A DNA stretch of 64,000 nt from Chloroherpetonaceae bacterium (GTDB taxonomy: Bacteria; Bacteroidota; Chlorobiia; Chlorobiales; Thermochlorobacteraceae): contig JANRJQ010000007.1 in assembly GCA_033763895.1 (NCBI GenBank), positions 248,001 through 312,000 on the forward strand. Reading direction: 5' to 3'. The translations under genes and the position numbers were made by a program. Under the pieces are notes generated by a model. That model was not told the origin of the DNA and ran no database searches. It saw only the letters and a list, made by a program, of their open reading frames with translations. Positions 26,897 to 63,042 of the stretch are shown piece after piece. Every line of letters starts with the position of its first letter. Position 1 is the stretch's first letter.

Positions 26897-27097
26897 ATGC
26901 TACAGCCGCAATTCACTTTAAAAGAAAAAATCATTCAAGCCCTTTCTGCACTGCCTGCTGATATGACATCAGACGAAGCTATTGAACAGATCCTTTTGAT
27001 TGATAAAATTGAAAAGGGATTAAAAGCCAAAGCGGAAGGAAAAACAACAAGTCATTCTGAAGCCAAAGACCGCGTTTTGAATCAATGGCAACAATAA
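26897..27097 (+). CDS. Small antitoxin-like protein of a type II toxin-antitoxin pair
   Basis: A 66-residue protein from the ATG at 26897. A longer frame from 26825 adds 24 residues that look unlike the family. The sequence TLKEKIIQALSALPADMTSDEAIEQILLIDKIEKGLKAKAEGKTTSHSEAKDRVLNQW resembles small antitoxins that precede ParE/RelE toxins, with the typical IEKGLxxxxxGxxxSHxEAKxR ending. The last codons overlap a start for a second reading frame (27085) that opens like a ParE/RelE toxin but stops after 12 codons, so the pair is broken. There is a weak ribosome site and no promoter can be placed. It sits just after the repeat block. Confidence 0.65.
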   Translation: MLQPQFTLKEKIIQALSALPADMTSDEAIEQILLIDKIEKGLKAKAEGKTTSHSEAKDRVLNQWQQ

Positions 27098-27123
27098 AAT
27101 GGACAGAACCTTCTCTGAACTAA
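27085..27123 (+). pseudogene. Remnant of a ParE/RelE-type toxin gene, truncated after 12 codons
   Basis: From the ATG at 27085, which overlaps the antitoxin end by 13 bp, the frame reads MATIKWTEPSLN and then stops at TAA (27121-27123). The opening matches the start of ParE/RelE-family toxins (M-x-x-I-K-W-T-E-P-A-L-x-D), and the overlap with the antitoxin is the normal arrangement of such pairs. Sequence beyond the stop shows no toxin in any frame and runs into a repeat element, so the rest appears to have been deleted or replaced. Confidence 0.5.
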
Positions 27124-27489
27124 TTACGACACTTTCCACTACTTTTTTGAAACCCTTTCATCCTTTGTGCACTTTGCGGATTTTCTCCGTGTTCTCTGTG
27201 TTTTGGAATTACAAACACAAAAGGCACTAAGAAAGAACACAAAGGACACAGAGAAATAAAATCAATAGGTCATTCCGGCAAGCGAAGCGCGCCCGGAATC
27301 CTGCACATGATAAATGAGATTGTTGAGCATATCGCAACCACCGTCTGAACTATGATTTATAGGATTTAAAGATTGATTATGATTCAAAATGGGTTATTAA
27401 TGAGGCAAATAATTCCAATAAATTATTTAACAGGGTGTTTGATAATGAAATATTTAGTATTTTATTATTTATAAAAATCAATTAAATGT
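27124..27489. repeat. Intergenic region with long imperfect inverted repeat and dispersed repeat pieces
   Basis: The segment at 27165-27260 has two opposing arms built on CCTTTGTGCACTTTGCGG / TCCGTGTTCTCTGTG and AGAACACAAAGGACACAGAG, which could fold into a long imperfect hairpin. It is followed by another TCATTCCGGCAAGCGAAGCGCGCCC / GGAATCCTGCAC piece (27270-27305) and by a GTCTGAACTATGATTTATAGG piece (27342). All are known here from the block at 26194-26824. This looks like repeat accumulation at the point where the toxin gene was lost. No gene is seen. Confidence 0.6.
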
Positions 27490-27960
27490 ATGTCAATACT
27501 CAAATATCTCTTCATGAATGTAAAGAAAACAATCACTTTACAACTAAAAGATATTTATCCTTGTGACTTATTTTCTAATGAAAATGAGCTTGTCAAAATA
27601 ATACCTTCAGAATATAAAAATAAAACAGTCGGAAACTCGGGCATAATTATTGACCTCACAAAAAATTCCTTATTTTTTTATTTTGATAATTTTATTTACT
27701 CATCTTCCATTAATGACATCAAAATGTTGAGCATTTTATTAACCGGAAATGACCCTGACCGAGGGAACAGATGCACTTTTAGCAAATTAATTCTTTATAA
27801 AAATAATGACAGTTATTTAGAATTGTTCTCGGGCGCACTTGAATTTGATTATAGATTGTCTGAACTAAAAAATATTCTAAATACTTGCGACATTCAGTTA
27901 AAAATTGAGGATAACCCAAGCGATACTGATTATTTAATTCATGATCAAGGTATGGTTTAA
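27490..27960 (+). CDS. Protein of unknown function, 156 residues
   Basis: I do not recognise this protein. It is soluble, with no signal or membrane segment, and rich in Asn, Ile, Lys and Leu. Alternating strands (IIIDLTKNSLFFYFDNFIYSSSIN; TFSKLILYKNNDSYLELFSGALEFDY) suggest a beta-sandwich or PH-like fold, with a short helix at the end (LSELKNILNTCDIQLKIEDN). An internal ATG at 27514 is an alternative start. Its AT-rich composition differs from the CDC48 gene before it and the small gene after it. A strong terminator follows at 27985. It is an orphan in the accessory patch. Confidence 0.6.
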   Translation: MSILKYLFMNVKKTITLQLKDIYPCDLFSNENELVKIIPSEYKNKTVGNSGIIIDLTKNSLFFYFDNFIYSSSINDIKMLSILLTGNDPDRGNRCTFSKLILYKNNDSYLELFSGALEFDYRLSELKNILNTCDIQLKIEDNPSDTDYLIHDQGMV

Positions 27961-27984
27961 TCCAAATTAATTCTATTAAAATTC

Positions 27985-28015
27985 AAAAACCGCCACAACT
28001 CGGCGGTTTTTTTAT
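27985..28015. terminator. Bidirectional intrinsic terminator
   Basis: A hairpin AAAAACCGCC, loop ACAACT, then GGCGGTTTTT followed by TTATTT. The stem is about 9-10 bp with a GC core, with a T run on one side and an A run on the other. It sits between the plus-strand gene ending at 27960 and the minus-strand gene ending at 28051, so it can stop both. Confidence 0.85.
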
Positions 28016-28050
28016 TTAATTATCCTCTTTGCATGAAAGAACAAATCAAT

Positions 28051-28416
28051 TTACTCCGCTTTTTTGGTGCTGCGTGCCGGGCGTTTCCGCTCCGATTTCT
28101 TTTTGAGCCCTACCGCCTGCACTTCATTGGAATTTGCCCCGTACTGCGCCACGATTTGCTGCCGCATACCCAAAATGGCATCGTAAAAAGCCCATTCGCG
28201 CTGCACGGCATTGTCGCGGGCGGTGTCGAAGGCGGCTTTCGCTTGCGTTTCGGCGGCTTCGGCGGCAATCATGTCGTCGTAGGCGCGTTGCAAGGCGCTC
28301 ATTTCGAACGCGGGATTCGCGGGTTTATAACCCGTGATGGCTTTTAGCGCATTGAAGGCTTCTTTGGATGTTGCAAGTTGATCAACAGCAGGACGACTTC
28401 TTGTTCTCGTAATCAT
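28051..28416 (-). CDS. Small basic-tailed protein of unknown function
   Basis: A protein of 121 residues, not assigned. It is mostly helical and alanine-rich (SALQRAYDDMIAAEAAETQAKAAFDTARDNAVQREWAFYDAIL), followed by MRQQIVAQYGANSNEVQAVGLKKKSERKRP and a lysine and arginine-rich tail. The GANSNEVQAVGLKKKSERK ending resembles a group of small hypothetical proteins I have seen in Bacteroidota and cyanobacteria, with no function attached. The base composition is more GC-rich than its flanks. It is isolated: a terminator is downstream and a 580-bp repeat-bearing gap is upstream. Confidence 0.65.
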   Translation of the reverse strand: MITRTRSRPAVDQLATSKEAFNALKAITGYKPANPAFEMSALQRAYDDMIAAEAAETQAKAAFDTARDNAVQREWAFYDAILGMRQQIVAQYGANSNEVQAVGLKKKSERKRPARSTKKAE

Positions 28417-28507
28417 TTGTGGTATTTGATTATAATTATTTGAAAGTTAAGCGAGAGTTGGTGATTGCTCTCATTACAAGAAACAAAGCAAATTGAAAAT
28501 TGTCAAG

Positions 28508-28570
28508 CGCGAATCGCCAAACACTCACAAATCATCGCTAAACACTCAAATTTCATCGCCAAACGCTCTA
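28508..28570 (+). repeat. Three-unit 21-bp tandem repeat, TCATCGCxAAACRCTC type
   Basis: Units begin at 28508, 28529 and 28550. Each contains ATCGC, then AAACACTC or AAACGCTC, at fixed positions. The length of exactly 21 bp equals two turns of B-DNA, so the motif repeats on one face of the helix. The ATCG core is shared with motifs at other intergenic sites in the window. Confidence 0.75.
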
Positions 28571-28715
28571 TTTTCTCCGATTTTATGCTTTATAAATGGT
28601 GTTTATTGAGTGATTACGCTTTTTAATCGAATTCAAGTGTCGTTCTTCCTTTTTTGAGTGTTTGCTTTGCTAAGGTGTAGCCACTTTTTAGTTATTTGAG
28701 GCAGTAAAATCAAAA

Positions 28716-28967
28716 AGTAGTGCTGTGCTTTTGATTAGCAGCGAGGTGCTTTCGATGAGCGGAGCATAAATATCGAAAAGCGGCGCAGTGCTTTTGATTA
28801 GCAGTTTGGTGCTTTCGTAAAGCGGAGTGAATCTTTCAAATAGCAGTGCAGTGCTTTTAATTAGCTGCGCGGTGATTTTGATTAGCAGTGAAGTGCTTTC
28901 GATTAGCTGTGCTAATCATTCAAAAAGCAGCAGAATGCTATTAAAGGACAATAGAATGTTTTCGAGG
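28716..28967 (-). repeat. Twelve-unit degenerate 21-bp tandem array
   Basis: Twelve consecutive 21-bp units start at 28716 and end at 28967 without length change. On the plus strand most begin AGC(A/G)G and continue GTGCTTTxGATx. The two last units are the most divergent. On the minus strand the units read ATCGAAAGCAC, so the ATCGA core matches the motif of other arrays in the window. Sequence drift with strict length conservation suggests selection or replication-driven renewal of spacing. It is not a CRISPR array, because there are no spacers between units. It lies downstream of the methyltransferase gene and upstream of the small gene at 28051-28416. Confidence 0.8.
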
Positions 28968-28999
28968 TTTATTAAGAAAATTATAAATTTCAGTTTGAA

Positions 29000-30679
29000 T
29001 TATTCTTTTGTCACCACCCCATTAACTTTCAATCGAATCACTTCAAGGCTTTCAAGCCCATCGTTATCGAACGCTTTCACAGCAACAATATGACTGCCAG
29101 CCTTAAATTTTGCCGTCTGAACGCCTTCTTTATCCATTAACACTTCGGGCTTAAAGTGGTTTTTTTCGCTATCGAAATTCCAATCCCACGCATAAAATTC
29201 GATGCCGGATTCTGAATTGGCAACGGCGCGAAATTCGATTTCCCGAAGCCCCTTTTTATCGGCGCCTTTATCTTCAAACGATACTTGCAAGGTTGGTTTT
29301 TTGGCGATAGGAATAATCTCGCTAACAGATACCAATTTAATTATTGCATTTTCATCATTTTTAATCCGCGCCGCTTCTTGAATGGCGCCTTTGCCAAAAC
29401 TAAACGCGATGATATAACCAACAGGTTTTCTTTCATGAATATTTCTCTCGAAAGCAACTTTATCGTATTGCTTTGCCGAAACAAAGAAATTTTTAATCAC
29501 ATTCACCCCAATATCATCAGAGCGTTTGACTTGAATCGGCGCATTGTCTTTGCTTTTTCCATCGATGCCTTTATCGCCGCCTTTTTTTGCATTGGGCGTA
29601 CCGCCAAATTGGGTAATAATCCAACTTTCAAATTCAAAGGCATCTTTATACCGAAGTGTATCGTAGTCGTATTTATGCAGTTGAATGGCGTAGGGTTTTG
29701 AGAATAAATCTTGTTGATTGGCTAAGCGCAATTCCGTTACTTTTATGGCGGCTACCGATTGGTCTATTCCTATCCAATGTCGGTTTAATTTATCGGCAAC
29801 AACCACCGTTGTACCCCCACCGACAAAAGGGTCAAGCACGGTATCGCCCTCGTTGCTTGCCATTTGAATAATGCGCTCTAATAATTTTATGGGTTTTTGG
29901 GTAGGGTAGCCGATTCTTTCAAAAGATTGAAATTGAACATTTGGTATATCTGTCCAAACATCTCCCACCAGCGTCCCTTTATCTTCATCTAAATATCTCT
30001 TAAATGCTAATCTTCCATTTTTATCGACTGGAAACCATATTAAACCATTTTCATCCCATTCTTTCATTTTTTCAATTGTACAGCGCCATCCGTTTTTTGG
30101 CGGTTTGTATCCTTTGTATTCATACAATCCGTTTTTATTTACCCTACTCGGGTTTGCTAAATTATCTAATCGAAATCTTCCTTTATCATCATATTTATTG
30201 TAGGCCTTTTCTAAATACTCAATATTATAATCACCATAAATTGGGTTATAATTAAAATTTGAAGTTTTAGAGTAAAACCATATAGTATCTTTAAGGACTG
30301 GAAGTTTCTTTTTCGCATCGTTATGAGTAGTTGTTCGTTGCCAAATTACTTCACCTCTAAAATTCTCTTCCTTAAAAATTCTATTCATTATAAAAATTTT
30401 TATTTCTGCATTTGCATGCCAATCGCAATGGAGGAAGATGGAGCCGGTGGGTTTGAGCAGGCGGTGCATTTCCTCGACGCGTTCTTTCAGCCACGCGATG
30501 TATTGGTCAATGCCGCCGCTCCAACGGTCTTGGAAACTGCGGACTTCCCCTTCATCGCCCCAAATAATTTCATAGTTTCGGTTTGAGAAGAAGGGAGGGT
30601 CTAAGTAAATCAGGTCGATGCTGTTTGAAGGTAGTTTTTTCAAGACTTCAAGGCAGTCGCCGAGGATGAGTTGGTTCAT
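29000..30679 (-). CDS. DNA methyltransferase fused to Mrr-like nuclease and PKD-like domain
   Basis: A protein of 559 residues in three parts. Residues 1-330 are a beta-class amino-methyltransferase, with catalytic DPPF at 27-30 and the AdoMet site DPFVGGGTT at 283-291, so motif IV comes before motif I. Residues 345-455 look like an Mrr-type PD-(D/E)xK nuclease: Glu351, GIDG with Asp373, and QVKRS with Gln383 and Lys385, followed by YIIAFSFGKGA. Residues 463-553 are a PKD/Ig-like sandwich (FYAWDWNFD...GSHIVAVKAFDNDG). It should methylate a specific DNA sequence and may cut it, acting as a one-polypeptide restriction-modification enzyme. A 95-codon gene ends 4 bp upstream. Similar methyltransferase-nuclease fusions exist in thermophiles, as far as I recall. 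Specificity is unknown. Confidence 0.85.
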   Translation of the reverse strand: MNQLILGDCLEVLKKLPSNSIDLIYLDPPFFSNRNYEIIWGDEGEVRSFQDRWSGGIDQYIAWLKERVEEMHRLLKPTGSIFLHCDWHANAEIKIFIMNRIFKEENFRGEVIWQRTTTHNDAKKKLPVLKDTIWFYSKTSNFNYNPIYGDYNIEYLEKAYNKYDDKGRFRLDNLANPSRVNKNGLYEYKGYKPPKNGWRCTIEKMKEWDENGLIWFPVDKNGRLAFKRYLDEDKGTLVGDVWTDIPNVQFQSFERIGYPTQKPIKLLERIIQMASNEGDTVLDPFVGGGTTVVVADKLNRHWIGIDQSVAAIKVTELRLANQQDLFSKPYAIQLHKYDYDTLRYKDAFEFESWIITQFGGTPNAKKGGDKGIDGKSKDNAPIQVKRSDDIGVNVIKNFFVSAKQYDKVAFERNIHERKPVGYIIAFSFGKGAIQEAARIKNDENAIIKLVSVSEIIPIAKKPTLQVSFEDKGADKKGLREIEFRAVANSESGIEFYAWDWNFDSEKNHFKPEVLMDKEGVQTAKFKAGSHIVAVKAFDNDGLESLEVIRLKVNGVVTKE

Positions 30680-30683
30680 TGGG

Positions 30684-30971
30684 TTATATTTTTCGATTTA
30701 AAAATTCAGGTATATGATAATAAACGGTCAGCAATTCTTCAATAAGTTCATTTGAAAACAAATTAAACTCCAGTTCATTTCTTAATACATTTTGGTGAAC
30801 TAAGGTATTATATCTATTTGAATGATCAATAAAAGAATAAAATGTATCCCAATCAGATGGATGTAAACGATTCACCCTTTTTTTCCATAGTGTTGGAGCA
30901 TTCAGAAACTCATCAAATTTTTTTCTTGCAGATGGAAGTAATTTTGATCTGTACTTTAAATTCTTTCTCAT
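30684..30971 (-). CDS. Small protein of unknown function upstream of the restriction-modification fusion
   Basis: A protein of 95 residues, not recognised. It is basic at the start (MRKNLKYRSKLLPSARKKFDEFL) and then helical and aromatic-rich (HPSDWDTFYSFIDHSNRYN...LIEELLTVYYHIPEFLNRK). It has no helix-turn-helix that I can see, so it is not an obvious controller protein. Its stop is 4 bp from the methyltransferase start, so the two form an operon and it may act with the enzyme. The ATG at 30969-30971 is preceded by AAAAAAGT with only a weak ribosome site. Confidence 0.6.
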   Translation of the reverse strand: MRKNLKYRSKLLPSARKKFDEFLNAPTLWKKRVNRLHPSDWDTFYSFIDHSNRYNTLVHQNVLRNELEFNLFSNELIEELLTVYYHIPEFLNRKI

Positions 30972-31948
30972 ACTTTTTTAGTGCATAAGCTCTACATATT
31001 AATTCAGTTTAATTGATCAATAAAGGGTATTGCTTTTCATTTCAATTCGAATAGTTGCATAAATTATTGAATATGGAGGTTTTCTCGCTTTAGCCACGTG
31101 GTTTCGACAGCCCGTGGCCACCTCATTGTGTTGTTTGCGGAGAGTCTGAGATTTCTCGCTGCGCTCGAAATGACTTCTTCAGGTTTTGTGGGATGCGACG
31201 CGGTGGTTTCGACAAGCTCAACCACCTTTTATATTGTCCCATTTTTGGTCATTTCGAACGAAGCGAAGCGGAGTGAGAAATCTCTGATGTGCGGAGTGTC
31301 TGAGATTTCTCGCTGCGAGCTTGACGAGCAAACTAATGCCTCGAAATGACTTCTTCAGGTTTTGTGGGAAGCGACGCGGTGGTTTCGACAAGCTCAACCA
31401 CCTTTTATATTGTCCCATTTTTGGTCATTTCGAACGAAGCGAAGCGGAGTGAGAAATCTCTGGTGTGCGGAGTGTCTGAGATTTTTCGCTGCGAGCTTGA
31501 CGAGCAAACTAACGCCTCGAAATGACTTCTTCAGGTTTTGTGGGAAGCGACGCGGTGGTTTCGACAAGCTCAACCACCTTATTTTGTTCCGTGCAGGATT
31601 CCGGACAAGCCGGTATGACATGCCTTTATTTGGTGCGTGCGGAGAGTCTGAGATTTCTCGCTACGCTCGAAATGACATATTCAATTGATGGGATTGCAAC
31701 ACGGTGGTTTCGACAAGCTCAACCACCTCAATTTGGTGCGTGCAGGATTCCGCAGCGAGCTTGACGAGCCTATTACCGCTTCGAAATGACAAAAGAGGGA
31801 GTCATTCCAACGAAAAATAATTTCCTTTTGAACCCAAGATGTTCTAATTTCTTACAAGTCTCTCTCACACCCATTGAAAAAGGAAATAAAAACGAGCGAC
31901 GAGAAGCTTTACGAAAGCTGGATTTCTAATCATTTATTTTGATTTCCG
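30972..31948. repeat. Large intergenic repeat block (right side of accessory patch)
   Basis: Nearly 1 kb without a credible gene. From 31080 to 31790 it is built from the same elements as the left block but in the reverse orientation: GGTGGTTTCGACAAGCTC / AACCACC hairpins at 31202-31226, 31378-31402, 31554-31578 and 31703-31727, stretches of the type GTCTGAGATTTCTCGCTGCG...TCGAAATGAC, and a GCAGGATTCC element near 31590. Open frames here are repeat readings. About 150 bp before the kinase start at 31949 is ordinary sequence that could hold its promoter. Confidence 0.85.
31172..31580 (+). repeat. 176-bp tandem repeat, two full copies and a partial third
   Basis: The junction word GACTTCTTCAGGTTTTGTGGGA begins at 31172, 31348 and 31524, exactly 176 bp apart. 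The 25-bp hairpin inside each copy is spaced by the same 176 bp. Copies 1 and 2 differ at only a few bases (GGATGC/GGAAGC, GATGTGC/GGTGTGC, AATGCC/AACGCC). The third copy breaks off after the hairpin near 31580. Near identity points to recent unequal crossing-over or slippage. Confidence 0.85.
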
Positions 31949-33328
31949 ATGAGTAAACCGTACGAATTTTCGGCTGAGCTGCAGCTTTATAAAAAACAGT
32001 ACGATTCCCTGCTTGAACTTTCGCGTTCACCCGCGATTGATAGCGGCGACTCCGAACTCGCCTTCCGCGAAATTGTTTGGACTGCCGCCGCAACCTTGCA
32101 ATGCGAGCGCGCTTCCATTTGGCTCTACAACGATTCGCGCGATGCCATCACGTGCGTTTGCCTTTACTCACGAAAACAAAAAGAATTTTCATTCGGCGAA
32201 ATTTTGCATGCTGCCGATTTCCCCGCCTATTTTCAATATCTCAACGAAGAACGCTTCCTTTCCGCCTCCGATACCTATAACGACCCCGCGACATTGGAAT
32301 TCAAAAACGGGTATTTGGAAGAGCATGACATCCGCTCAATGCTTGACGCCCCGATTCGGCTTGATGGGAATATGATTGGCGTGCTGTGTCATGAACACTG
32401 CGGGGAAATACGGGAGTGGTCGATTGTTGAGCAAAGCTATGCCGGCGTGCTTTCGGAAATGGTTTCGCGGGCTATCCAAGCCAAGAATCGCGAAAAGGCG
32501 CAGCGCGAGCTTAAGATTGTCAATGAAAATCTTGAACGCATCATTCACAATAAAACCAACCACTTAGAGGCCGCTCTGCAAAGCTCGGAAGAAAAGCTGA
32601 TTCGGCTTCAGCAGTTGAACCGCGATAAAAATCAAATGATGGGAATGGTGGTGCATGACTTGAAAAATCCGCTCACGGCCGTCACACTTTACGCCGATTC
32701 CATTTTAATGAGCAACCCCACCCGCGAGCAAGCTCAGTATGCGCATTTGATTCAAGATATCGTCACCCGAATGACGAAAACCATTGAAGGCTTTCTTCAA
32801 AGTATGGAAAGTGATTCGGGTAGAATCTCTCTGAGAAAGCGACCGATTGATATGGCGCAGCTGATTATGCTGGTTGTTTCGATGAATGAAGAACAGGCCA
32901 AGCGCAAGGAACAATCAATATCGCTTGAATTGGAAGATGGATGCCTTGCCAATGTGGATGAAGATAAAATGTGCGAAGTGCTGGATAATCTGGTTTCCAA
33001 CGCCATAAAATATTCGGAGCGAGGCAAAGAGATTCGAATCGTGGTGAAGCGTGTGGAGTATCCTAATCCAAAGCCGCAATTTCTTTCAAGCGTGGTTGTG
33101 GCAGTATCGGATAAAGGTCAAGGGTTTTCGGAAGATGATAAACACAATCTTTTTGGATCATTTCAACGGCTTTCTTCAACCCCGACGGCCGGAGAGAGCG
33201 CTTCGGGCTTGGGGCTTTCAATTGCAAAGCAATTGGTAGAATTGCATGAGGGGAAAATATGGGTTCACTCCGATGGCAAAGATAAGGGCGCAACTTTTTA
33301 TGTGGAACTGCCGGCGGCTGAGAATTAA
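31949..33328 (+). CDS. Cytoplasmic GAF-domain histidine kinase
   Basis: A protein of 459 residues without membrane segments. Residues 20-180 form a GAF domain (ERASIWLYNDSRDAITCVCLYSRKQKEF...DIRSMLDAPIRLDGNMIGVLCHEH), a small-molecule sensor. A coiled linker (KAQRELKIVNENLERIIHN) leads to HisKA with His236 (MVVHDLKNPLTAVTLYADSIL) and an ATPase domain with NLVSNAIKYSE, SDKGQGF and ASGLGLSIAKQLV. The ATG follows an AT-rich leader after the repeat block. The nearest downstream genes are a glycosyltransferase and a GGDEF response regulator at 34634, a plausible phosphorylation partner. It belongs to the signalling genes interleaved with the second glycan locus. Confidence 0.85.
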   Translation: MSKPYEFSAELQLYKKQYDSLLELSRSPAIDSGDSELAFREIVWTAAATLQCERASIWLYNDSRDAITCVCLYSRKQKEFSFGEILHAADFPAYFQYLNEERFLSASDTYNDPATLEFKNGYLEEHDIRSMLDAPIRLDGNMIGVLCHEHCGEIREWSIVEQSYAGVLSEMVSRAIQAKNREKAQRELKIVNENLERIIHNKTNHLEAALQSSEEKLIRLQQLNRDKNQMMGMVVHDLKNPLTAVTLYADSILMSNPTREQAQYAHLIQDIVTRMTKTIEGFLQSMESDSGRISLRKRPIDMAQLIMLVVSMNEEQAKRKEQSISLELEDGCLANVDEDKMCEVLDNLVSNAIKYSERGKEIRIVVKRVEYPNPKPQFLSSVVVAVSDKGQGFSEDDKHNLFGSFQRLSSTPTAGESASGLGLSIAKQLVELHEGKIWVHSDGKDKGATFYVELPAAEN

Positions 33329-62196: not shown

Positions 62197-63042
62197 GCGT
62201 GTTTGAAATGGAAGTCAAGTGTGAAATAACCTTCGATAAGCAGCAATTCAATCGAAACATTGGGGAAAATCACCGAAAAAAAGCAGCTCTTTAAAATTGT
62301 TTTAAGGTTAAAAACAAAATGTTTTAAGGCTTAAAACAAAACGTTTTTAAGTTAAAAACAAATTGATTTTAAGCTATTCTTACTTTTTGAAAGCCTTAAA
62401 TTTAGTTGAAAAATGCGTGTTTTAGGGTATGATTGTGCTGCAAGGGGGTTGCGCTTCTTGGAACCCCACGGCATTTCTTTTCATGTCATTCCAGCAAAAG
62501 AAGAGTGTCCAGAATTCTGCACGCCGATTATTCGCGTGGTGGATGGGCCTGTGTGGTGGTTGAGCTTCTTGAAACCACCTGCCACATGACACGGTCATTT
62601 CGACAGGCTCAATGACCTCCCTCTTTGTCATTTCGAGGCTTTATGATGCTCATTAGGCTCGCAGCGTGAAATCTCTGACCTTCAGCACACCAAAGATTTC
62701 TCCCTTCGCATCGGTCAAAATGAGACGCATTTTTCCTTCTCGCGATAAATGAGGTGTTGAGCCTTTTGAAACCACCATCCCTTCCCTGTCAAATCGTTCC
62801 TACATTAAACTCCATAGGCTCATTGCGGTACTGAAAAGTAAAAGCTAAAAAAACCGAATTGTTCCTACTTCAAAAATAATTTTAGAAATGTTGATGAATA
62901 AGTTAAATGTCATATCAAAAAATGGCCTTTTGACGGATAAAAAAAAGGAGTAACACCAGACAACCTTGTCATCTATATTTATGTGATTTTATCACACCTA
63001 TAAGCGGTCTCGAGGGAAGTAAAAAAAAAGAGAAGCAAGAGT
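62197..63042. repeat. Intergenic region with repeats and no clear gene
   Basis: About 850 bp. At 62299-62374 there is a 22-bp tandem repeat of three full units (starts 62299, 62321, 62343) plus a partial fourth, of the type GTTTTAAGGTTAAAAACAAA. From 62480 to 62790 come the dispersed elements seen at 26 kb in the same orientation, including a 25-bp hairpin at 62555-62579 with GGTGGTT and AACCACC arms and a TCATTTCGAGGC / AAATCTCTGACC element. The last 200 bp before 63043 are ordinary AT-rich sequence and should contain the promoter of the following gene. Confidence 0.7.
62299..62374 (+). repeat. 22-bp AT-rich tandem repeat, three and a half units
   Basis: Units start at 62299, 62321 and 62343, with a partial unit at 62365. 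Each begins GTTTTAAG or GTTTTTAAG and ends AAAACAAA plus two variable bases. The 22-bp length differs from the 21-bp arrays elsewhere, and the sequence is unrelated. Confidence 0.75.

Follow-up and report, generated by a model that had tools for sequence, protein, structure and literature searches.

Plasmid centromeres and iterons (ParR–parC, omega–parS, Rep) are made up of tandem sites, often of about 20–22 bp, near the gene of a small DNA-binding protein, and in Nostoc the NsiR1 tandem direct repeats lie upstream of hetF and encode sRNAs with their own promoters. CRISPR arrays comprise identical repeats with unique spacers. In type III toxin–antitoxin systems (ToxIN, AbiQ and relatives) an array of direct repeats precedes a small gene, the repeat being described as conserved in length (34–36 nt in ToxIN-family examples) but divergent in unit sequence and in number (PMC5086642). 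REP/RAYT systems (REPtrons) are described as palindromic repeats that are dispersed in genomes and that flank an associated protein gene present in one or a few copies (PMC3733652); the palindromes are GTAG-tagged and the partner is an IS200/IS605-type tyrosine transposase. Direct heptamer repeats (TAACTGA; cyanobacterial STRR), many of them intergenic, are described for cyanobacteria, Beggiatoaceae and Bacteroidetes (PMC4679880).

The locus studied here lies in a 64,000-nucleotide stretch of a Chloroherpetonaceae genome (contig JANRJQ010000007.1), hereafter the window, and comprises an array of diverged 21-bp repeats which, read on the minus strand, is located upstream of a gene for a 121-aa protein. 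Array and gene are one module, and the protein family is undescribed. In layout the closest analogy is with the type III systems, in which direct repeats likewise precede a small gene, with repeat length kept and sequence and number diverging. Our locus differs from these in its shorter unit (20–21 bp), in the near absence of a terminator in the gap between array and gene, in its all-helical 121-aa protein and in the frequent occurrence of arrays without the gene; membership of type III is disfavored because terminators are missing and arrays are free-standing. Like REP/RAYT repeats, the arrays are dispersed beyond the partner gene, both in the own genome and, as matches to a unit pattern, in nine of ten cyanobacterial genomes, but they are strict 20–21-bp tandem arrays instead of tagged palindromes, and the partner is not recognizable as a transposase of the RAYT type. 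Compared to plasmid centromeres and iterons, no linked ParA, ParM or TubZ NTPase or Rep gene is found among 80 loci, the loci are mostly on chromosomal contigs, and the protein is not recognizably of the RHH or HTH type. The head-to-tail units have no spacers, unlike CRISPR, and differ from the TAACTGA/STRR repeats in lacking 7- or 14-bp periodicity, in sequence and in having a dedicated partner gene. The NsiR1 repeats likewise form a tandem array upstream of a Nostoc gene, but a different one. In the open literature in PMC, to which our search was confined, nothing was found that describes this pairing of array and protein.

The array and its partner gene in the window

The features of the locus and its surroundings are collected in Table 1. 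A preliminary description, made from the letters of the window, had reported 12 units of exactly 21 bp, and this was confirmed: over the 252 bp of the main array the identity at lag 21 is 0.593 (0.562 at lag 42 and 0.646 at lag 63), whereas a 252-bp stretch reaches at most 0.40 at lag 21 when the window is mononucleotide-shuffled 200 times, and TRF detects the array at periods 21, 42 and 63. The same description held that an ATCGA core is largely kept on the minus strand; exact ATCGA is present in only two of the 12 units, and the recurrent minus-strand pattern is looser, roughly AATCRAAAGCAC...CTGCT. Its arguments that the array is neither a young microsatellite nor a CRISPR are supported, as is its view that the array does not encode protein: all six frames hold at least one stop, so that the array is not one coding sequence, with one plus-strand frame containing only two stops and one minus-strand frame a single stop. 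The array region gave one 56-base DNA match to a crAssphage record, and a comparison of positions 27000–32000 with Rfam returned seven matches at E ≤ 1, all far under the gathering scores.

Table 1. Features of the array locus and of its surroundings (positions counted from the first letter of the window).
Feature	Positions	Strand	Remarks
Main array	28716–28967	−	12 diverged direct repeats, 21 bp; partly dyad-symmetric (AGCA....TGCT)
Rightmost unit of main array	28947–28967		weak
Second array	28513–28575	−	3.0 units of exactly 21 bp, between main array and gene (TRF)
TTGACA, −35-like hexamer	28501–28506	−	between arrays and gene; alone not above chance here (p 0.37)
Leader inverted repeat GAGAGCAATCACCAACTCTC	28453–28472	−	by eye like a leader hairpin of Accumulibacter relatives
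Gene for the 121-aa protein	28051–28416	−	ORF; predicted helices 11–25, 39–92 and 97–101; basic tail 103–121, net charge +7
Terminator-like inverted repeat with T runs	27990–28016		at the 3′ side of the gene; read in the sequence
DNA methylase (N6_N4_Mtase)	29000–30679	−	beside the main array; weak Mrr-like C-terminal match in the same polypeptide
Tandem repeat, 176 bp	31164–31580		2.4 copies, 98% identity; built of an interspersed GGTTTCGACAAGCTCAACCACC-type repeat that recurs in the genome
Short tandem array	62294–62373		22 bp × 3.6

The preliminary description overlooked the partner gene. It did note a small array near 28508–28570, which is real, but the opposite-facing, convergent arrangement proposed for it is unsupported because the second unit matches the main-array consensus at 9 of 21 positions, no better than shuffled letters (p 0.48 in the same sense, 0.86 inverted); judged by its sequence, the second array appears to be an unrelated 21-bp array. 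The inverted repeat in the gene's leader resembles, by eye, an Accumulibacter leader hairpin (CGAGGGTAATCC..CTCCTCGG), with an AATC-containing loop that seems common to the window and the relatives L068 and L073. A 95-aa ORF lies upstream of the methylase gene; the methylase itself is not conserved as a neighbor of the family in the ORF comparison of 80 loci described below.

For the 121-aa protein AlphaFold2 predicts (pLDDT 89, pTM 0.59) the helices given in Table 1, the second of which is long and the third short, followed by the basic tail at low confidence, and the same helix layout is predicted for an array-bearing distant subfamily (pLDDT 86). Across 129 family proteins the median net charge is +7 for the C-terminal 22 residues and −3 for the 100 residues before them. 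The protein has no Pfam match at E ≤ 1, and no Pfam, NCBIfam or PADLOC family was convincingly matched by its family. Comparison of the alignment members with NCBIfam and Pfam returned weak, scattered matches only (best E 0.006), one member touching AT_hook at E 0.05. A sequence search of the PDB gave nothing below E 0.1, fold searches of the PDB and BFVD gave no match at E ≤ 0.001, the best Z from VIA-align was only 2.0, PHROGs yielded weak matches only, and the phage and viral collections yielded none. No ToxN/AbiQ-type endoribonuclease fold was seen among Pfam, NCBIfam, PADLOC or PDB matches, a missing match not excluding such a fold, and none of the transposase families in Pfam or NCBIfam was matched.

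Occurrence of the family and its association with upstream arrays

The own genome (3.55 Mb in 14 contigs) holds one intact copy of the gene and one truncated remnant (L002, at about 37.7 kb of contig C13), in which the 3′ end of the gene is followed by a similar terminator-like inverted repeat; this remnant is a sign of loss or decay of gene copies. Among 61 genomes, the own and 60 relatives, none of which is of the same genus, the gene is present only in the own, and it is lacking from all eight other genomes of the same bacterial family. In wider samples of the window's phylum it occurs in 12 of 296 genomes by single-protein search and in 18 of 394 by profile, and among cyanobacteria in 16 of 194, so that its distribution over the sampled genomes is patchy. 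A profile scan of genome contigs gave 278 relatives, the best 80 of which, ranked by similarity to the query, were taken as contig loci. Array-bearing relatives belong to at least seven phyla (Cyanobacteriota, Pseudomonadota, Chloroflexota, Acidobacteriota, Verrucomicrobiota, Bacteroidota and Ignavibacteriota). On plasmids the protein family was found once in Nostoc and, for a distant subfamily, once in Kovacikia. Members of double length (about 240 aa) exist in the window's phylum (L188, L191 and L192), with 17.8 units upstream of the gene in L191 and an 11-unit array downstream in L192; no plasmid occurrence of this form was found.

Two of the first relatives compared, L054 from a distant family of the phylum and L065 from the Nostoc plasmid, have a 21-bp array just upstream of the gene, the unit sequences being unrelated. 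Over the contig loci a period-21 signal, defined as an identity of 0.60 or more over 63 bp, was detected in 50 of 77 upstream 600-bp stretches, versus none of 75 downstream stretches and four of 66 far-upstream stretches (1.8–2.4 kb), loci among the 80 with less than 400 bp upstream or with missing control stretches having been dropped. No other period from 12 to 40 was found upstream in more than three loci. TRF was applied to 127 distinct family loci; the window itself, duplicate proteins, loci in which no ORF could be called with confidence and stretches shorter than 150 bp were left out. An array with a period of 20, 21 or a multiple thereof is present within 1250 bp upstream in 90 of these 127 loci and downstream in five (Fisher p about 2e-31, ignoring relatedness). 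The upstream count is 65 of 83 in the close family, 8 of 14 for the close family in a separate cyanobacterial sample and 17 of 19 in distant subfamilies (weak profile matches), and 0 of 11 in a Kapaibacteria-centered clade. The association of array and gene is the firm result, and the retention of unit length under drifting sequence, which the preliminary description had seen in the window, holds far beyond it. Since relatives usually carry differently spelled 20–21-bp arrays in the same place, it is the length of the repeat, not its sequence, that seems to be kept.

By the TRF test 37 of the 127 loci, including the clade of 11, are without an array, which indicates that the array is dispensable or replaceable. 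The leaders of the array-less clade (L055–L063) have, by eye, GGCATGCAGCATAA in common before the start codon, possibly an element that replaces the array. Mapped on a tree of 124 proteins, of which 88 have an array and 36 do not (three long forms left out), the array state requires at least 18 changes, 12 of them forced by well-supported branches, and despite these changes the arrays found keep a period of 20–21 bp or a multiple. An all-against-all comparison of the ORFs of 90 aa or more that start within 4.5 kb of the gene revealed, over the 80 loci, no recurrent second gene beyond syntenic loci, mostly of Nostoc; family members and overlapping-frame artefacts aside, the largest cluster covers eight loci, looks aldo-keto-reductase-like by eye and is mostly from syntenic Nostoc.

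Anatomy of gene-linked and gene-free arrays

Within 83 loci 61 arrays were delimited, which contain 4.1 to 18.6 units (median 8.7) and range in G+C from 25 to 72%. At lag 21 the mean excess match is +0.375; at lags 20 and 22 it lies slightly below zero, and at lags 7 and 14 it is −0.033 and −0.030, respectively, so that there is no 7-bp sub-period; in some loci the period is 20 bp. Unit sequence and copy number vary freely across the family while the period is constant, and the arrays of different clades have no obvious motif in common. A conserved unit count, which the preliminary description named as a possible sign of function, was not found: relatives with 94–98% identical proteins have 11.3 versus 13.7, 11.9 versus 9.2, and 6.5 versus 4.7 units (the pair L138/L145, with an identity of 0.09 from an ungapped offset, was left out). 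Dyad symmetry is widespread, with a mean best-centre complementarity of 0.66 compared to 0.53 in column-permuted controls, and is significant at p ≤ 0.05 in 32 and at p ≤ 0.01 in 20 of the 61 arrays. Hairpins (RNA or cruciform) maintained by compensatory change, first suspected by eye in L054, are unsupported, because paired positions do not covary within arrays. After arrays under 147 bp had been dropped, 47 of 63 arrays (the 61 plus two gene-free ones) were used; mutual information is 0.27 versus 0.30 at decoy centres and higher in 20 of 41 arrays, and the compensated fraction is 0.044 versus 0.023 at decoys and higher in 25 of 47. On the gene strand G·T mismatches number 153 and A·C mismatches 106 (40 arrays), an excess which, counted by array, is not significant (23 versus 14, p 0.19). 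Codon-phase variability reaches p ≤ 0.05 in none of 49 arrays, by which a coding repeat is refuted as the general explanation, and 16 of the 61 arrays have no fully open frame.

The stretch between array and gene could be scanned for promoters and terminators in 58 of the 61 loci. The best sigma-70-like site of ten betaproteobacterial relatives is located below the array, 46–54 nt before the start codon (for instance TTGACA-18-TATTCT in L073), and, as read from sequence, these genes seem to have their own promoter there. Over all clades the promoter score exceeds chance (p ≤ 0.05) in only 7 of 58 gaps, five of which are Accumulibacter-type, and a simple scan finds a terminator-like hairpin in two gaps, compared with 0.7 expected by shuffling. 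In filamentous cyanobacteria TGGGCACATTAAA is common to the array–gene stretch.

Arrays also occur away from the gene. The own genome has two further 21-bp arrays (L026 and L028), neither beside it, one of which starts with window-like units (an exact match to the unit pattern) and then drifts to AATCAGACGCCCCTGATTTCG with the ATCGAA linker kept. The three-unit pattern CATTNNNAATG at a spacing of 21 matches in nine of ten cyanobacterial genomes, up to 163 times in one, and its reversed control has zero matches in the same ten. None of 15 pattern-match regions that were fetched contains a family ORF, and the immediate flanks of the fetched gene-free arrays are mostly unrelated. Of the 16 cyanobacterial genomes that have the gene 11 contain the pattern, as do 2 of the 178 that lack it (p about 1e-12, ignoring phylogeny), with the provisos that in some genomes the matches are the gene-linked arrays themselves and that a few single two-mismatch matches look like chance; such pattern tests detect one unit type only. 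At one gene-free array (L251) a flank resembling the gene leader is kept and the gene is absent. Two others (L239 and L241, Nostocales HT-58-2) have flanks alike on both sides, beside ORFs of ~260 aa, and perhaps represent a duplicated, mobile segment containing the array. A 4-core pattern at 21-bp spacing matched in five of the eight other genomes of the bacterial family; the clean matches read, by eye, as FKDEMKD-type heptads (TTCAAAGACGAAATGAAAGAC and variants), which are seen in G001, G003 and G008. These are probably coding coiled-coil repeats and not this array, and such coding heptads are a source of false matches in 21-bp searches.

Proposed phased DNA sites and rival explanations

A period of 20–21 bp corresponds to two turns of B-DNA. 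We put at roughly two in five the probability that the protein binds its own array as DNA, at sites in phase every two helical turns, and the dispersed arrays likewise. The 121-aa protein would then be a DNA-binding protein, small, helical and probably dimeric. Its dimers would occupy dyad sites exactly two B-DNA turns apart and so be aligned on one face of the helix; aligned dimers would assemble cooperatively via their long helices, and the basic C-terminal tail would touch the DNA. At the gene-linked array, which would lie upstream of the gene's own promoter, such assembly would bring about autoregulation of the gene, and at dispersed arrays the same complex may form and organize or regulate those places. 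That spacing is fixed while sequence drifts suits a protein which recognizes the spacing and dyad form of its sites more than their exact bases, and non-compensatory variation within arrays is as expected for protein sites, not for hairpins. We count in favor of a DNA platform the association, the period, the dyads, the non-coding nature of the arrays, the promoter position, the gene-free arrays of the same unit, the co-occurrence, the basic tail and the common helix layout. Against it we count that no DNA-binding fold was recognized, that the clades' arrays share no obvious motif though the protein's C-terminus shows good conservation, a combination unexpected of sequence-specific binding, that loci without an array exist, that gap promoters rarely exceed chance and that the co-occurrence figure takes no account of phylogeny.

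Alternatively, the module could operate through RNA in a manner like type III toxin–antitoxin pairs, with the array transcribed to a tandem-repeat RNA that is bound by the small basic protein and perhaps restrains it. We think this unlikely, although the layout, with repeats preceding a small gene, is alike, the type III monomer is also described as conserved in length while diverging in sequence and number (PMC5086642), the dyads would yield hairpins, and G·T mismatches outnumber A·C mismatches on the gene strand. Against these stand the lack of covariation between paired positions, the loss of significance of the G·T excess when counted by array, the near absence of the Rho-independent terminator that is a type III hallmark, the promoters that the betaproteobacterial genes seem to carry below the array, where type III systems have a single promoter ahead of an array that is transcribed and processed, the many arrays without the gene and the fact that no toxin-like fold was recognized. 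Phased DNA sites fit better than structured RNA because the period is constant while sequence is free, the dyads do not covary and gene-free arrays of the same unit occur; the position of the array above the gene's promoter, where this can be judged, favors them as well. Comparably doubtful is a repeat parasite of the REP/RAYT kind, in which the array spreads in genomes, the protein acts in trans to copy, protect or move it, and gene-free arrays are non-autonomous. Such a parasite would account for the abundance of dispersed gene-free arrays with the gene-linked unit, for their mostly different immediate flanks, for the patchy distribution of the family and for decayed copies such as L002 and L251, but the protein is small, helical and without a Pfam or NCBIfam transposase family, defined ends or target duplications are not established, and a parasite would not need an array kept upstream of its gene across seven phyla.

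That a neutral minisatellite without a role arose upstream of these genes by chance is very improbable. Copy number does vary among near relatives and many loci are without an array, but the excess of upstream over downstream arrays, the recurrence of one period in many clades whose array sequences are unrelated and the at least 12 forced state changes on the tree, with a period that is always 20–21 bp or a multiple, speak against it. We give almost no credence to a coding heptad repeat (21 bp being seven codons) that has become a pseudogene: heptad-reading 21-bp repeats exist in related genomes and the window array has frames with few stops, but each of its six frames is interrupted, and the family's arrays show no codon-phase signal and in part have no open frame.

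Starting again from phased DNA sites, we tentatively propose, as a less probable extension, a widespread undescribed two-part system, in which a small, conserved helical protein whose tail is basic is paired with an array whose sole strict rule is the 20–21-bp period, spacing and dyad shape, and not a fixed sequence, being what is recognized. Each lineage could then give its arrays new sequences and place them at numerous sites of the genome as platforms for nucleoprotein assembly. As it is the period and not the letters that defines it, the array is nearly invisible to alignment-based annotation; the finding concerns a period-defined DNA feature tied, in at least seven phyla, to a protein family to which no Pfam or NCBIfam model could be assigned. 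Should the array act as RNA instead, the pair would represent a new system that operates in the manner of type III toxin–antitoxin pairs. Should assembly of the protein on helically phased arrays prove true, these would constitute a new kind of bacterial chromosome element, the same unit being scattered at many sites in cyanobacterial genomes.
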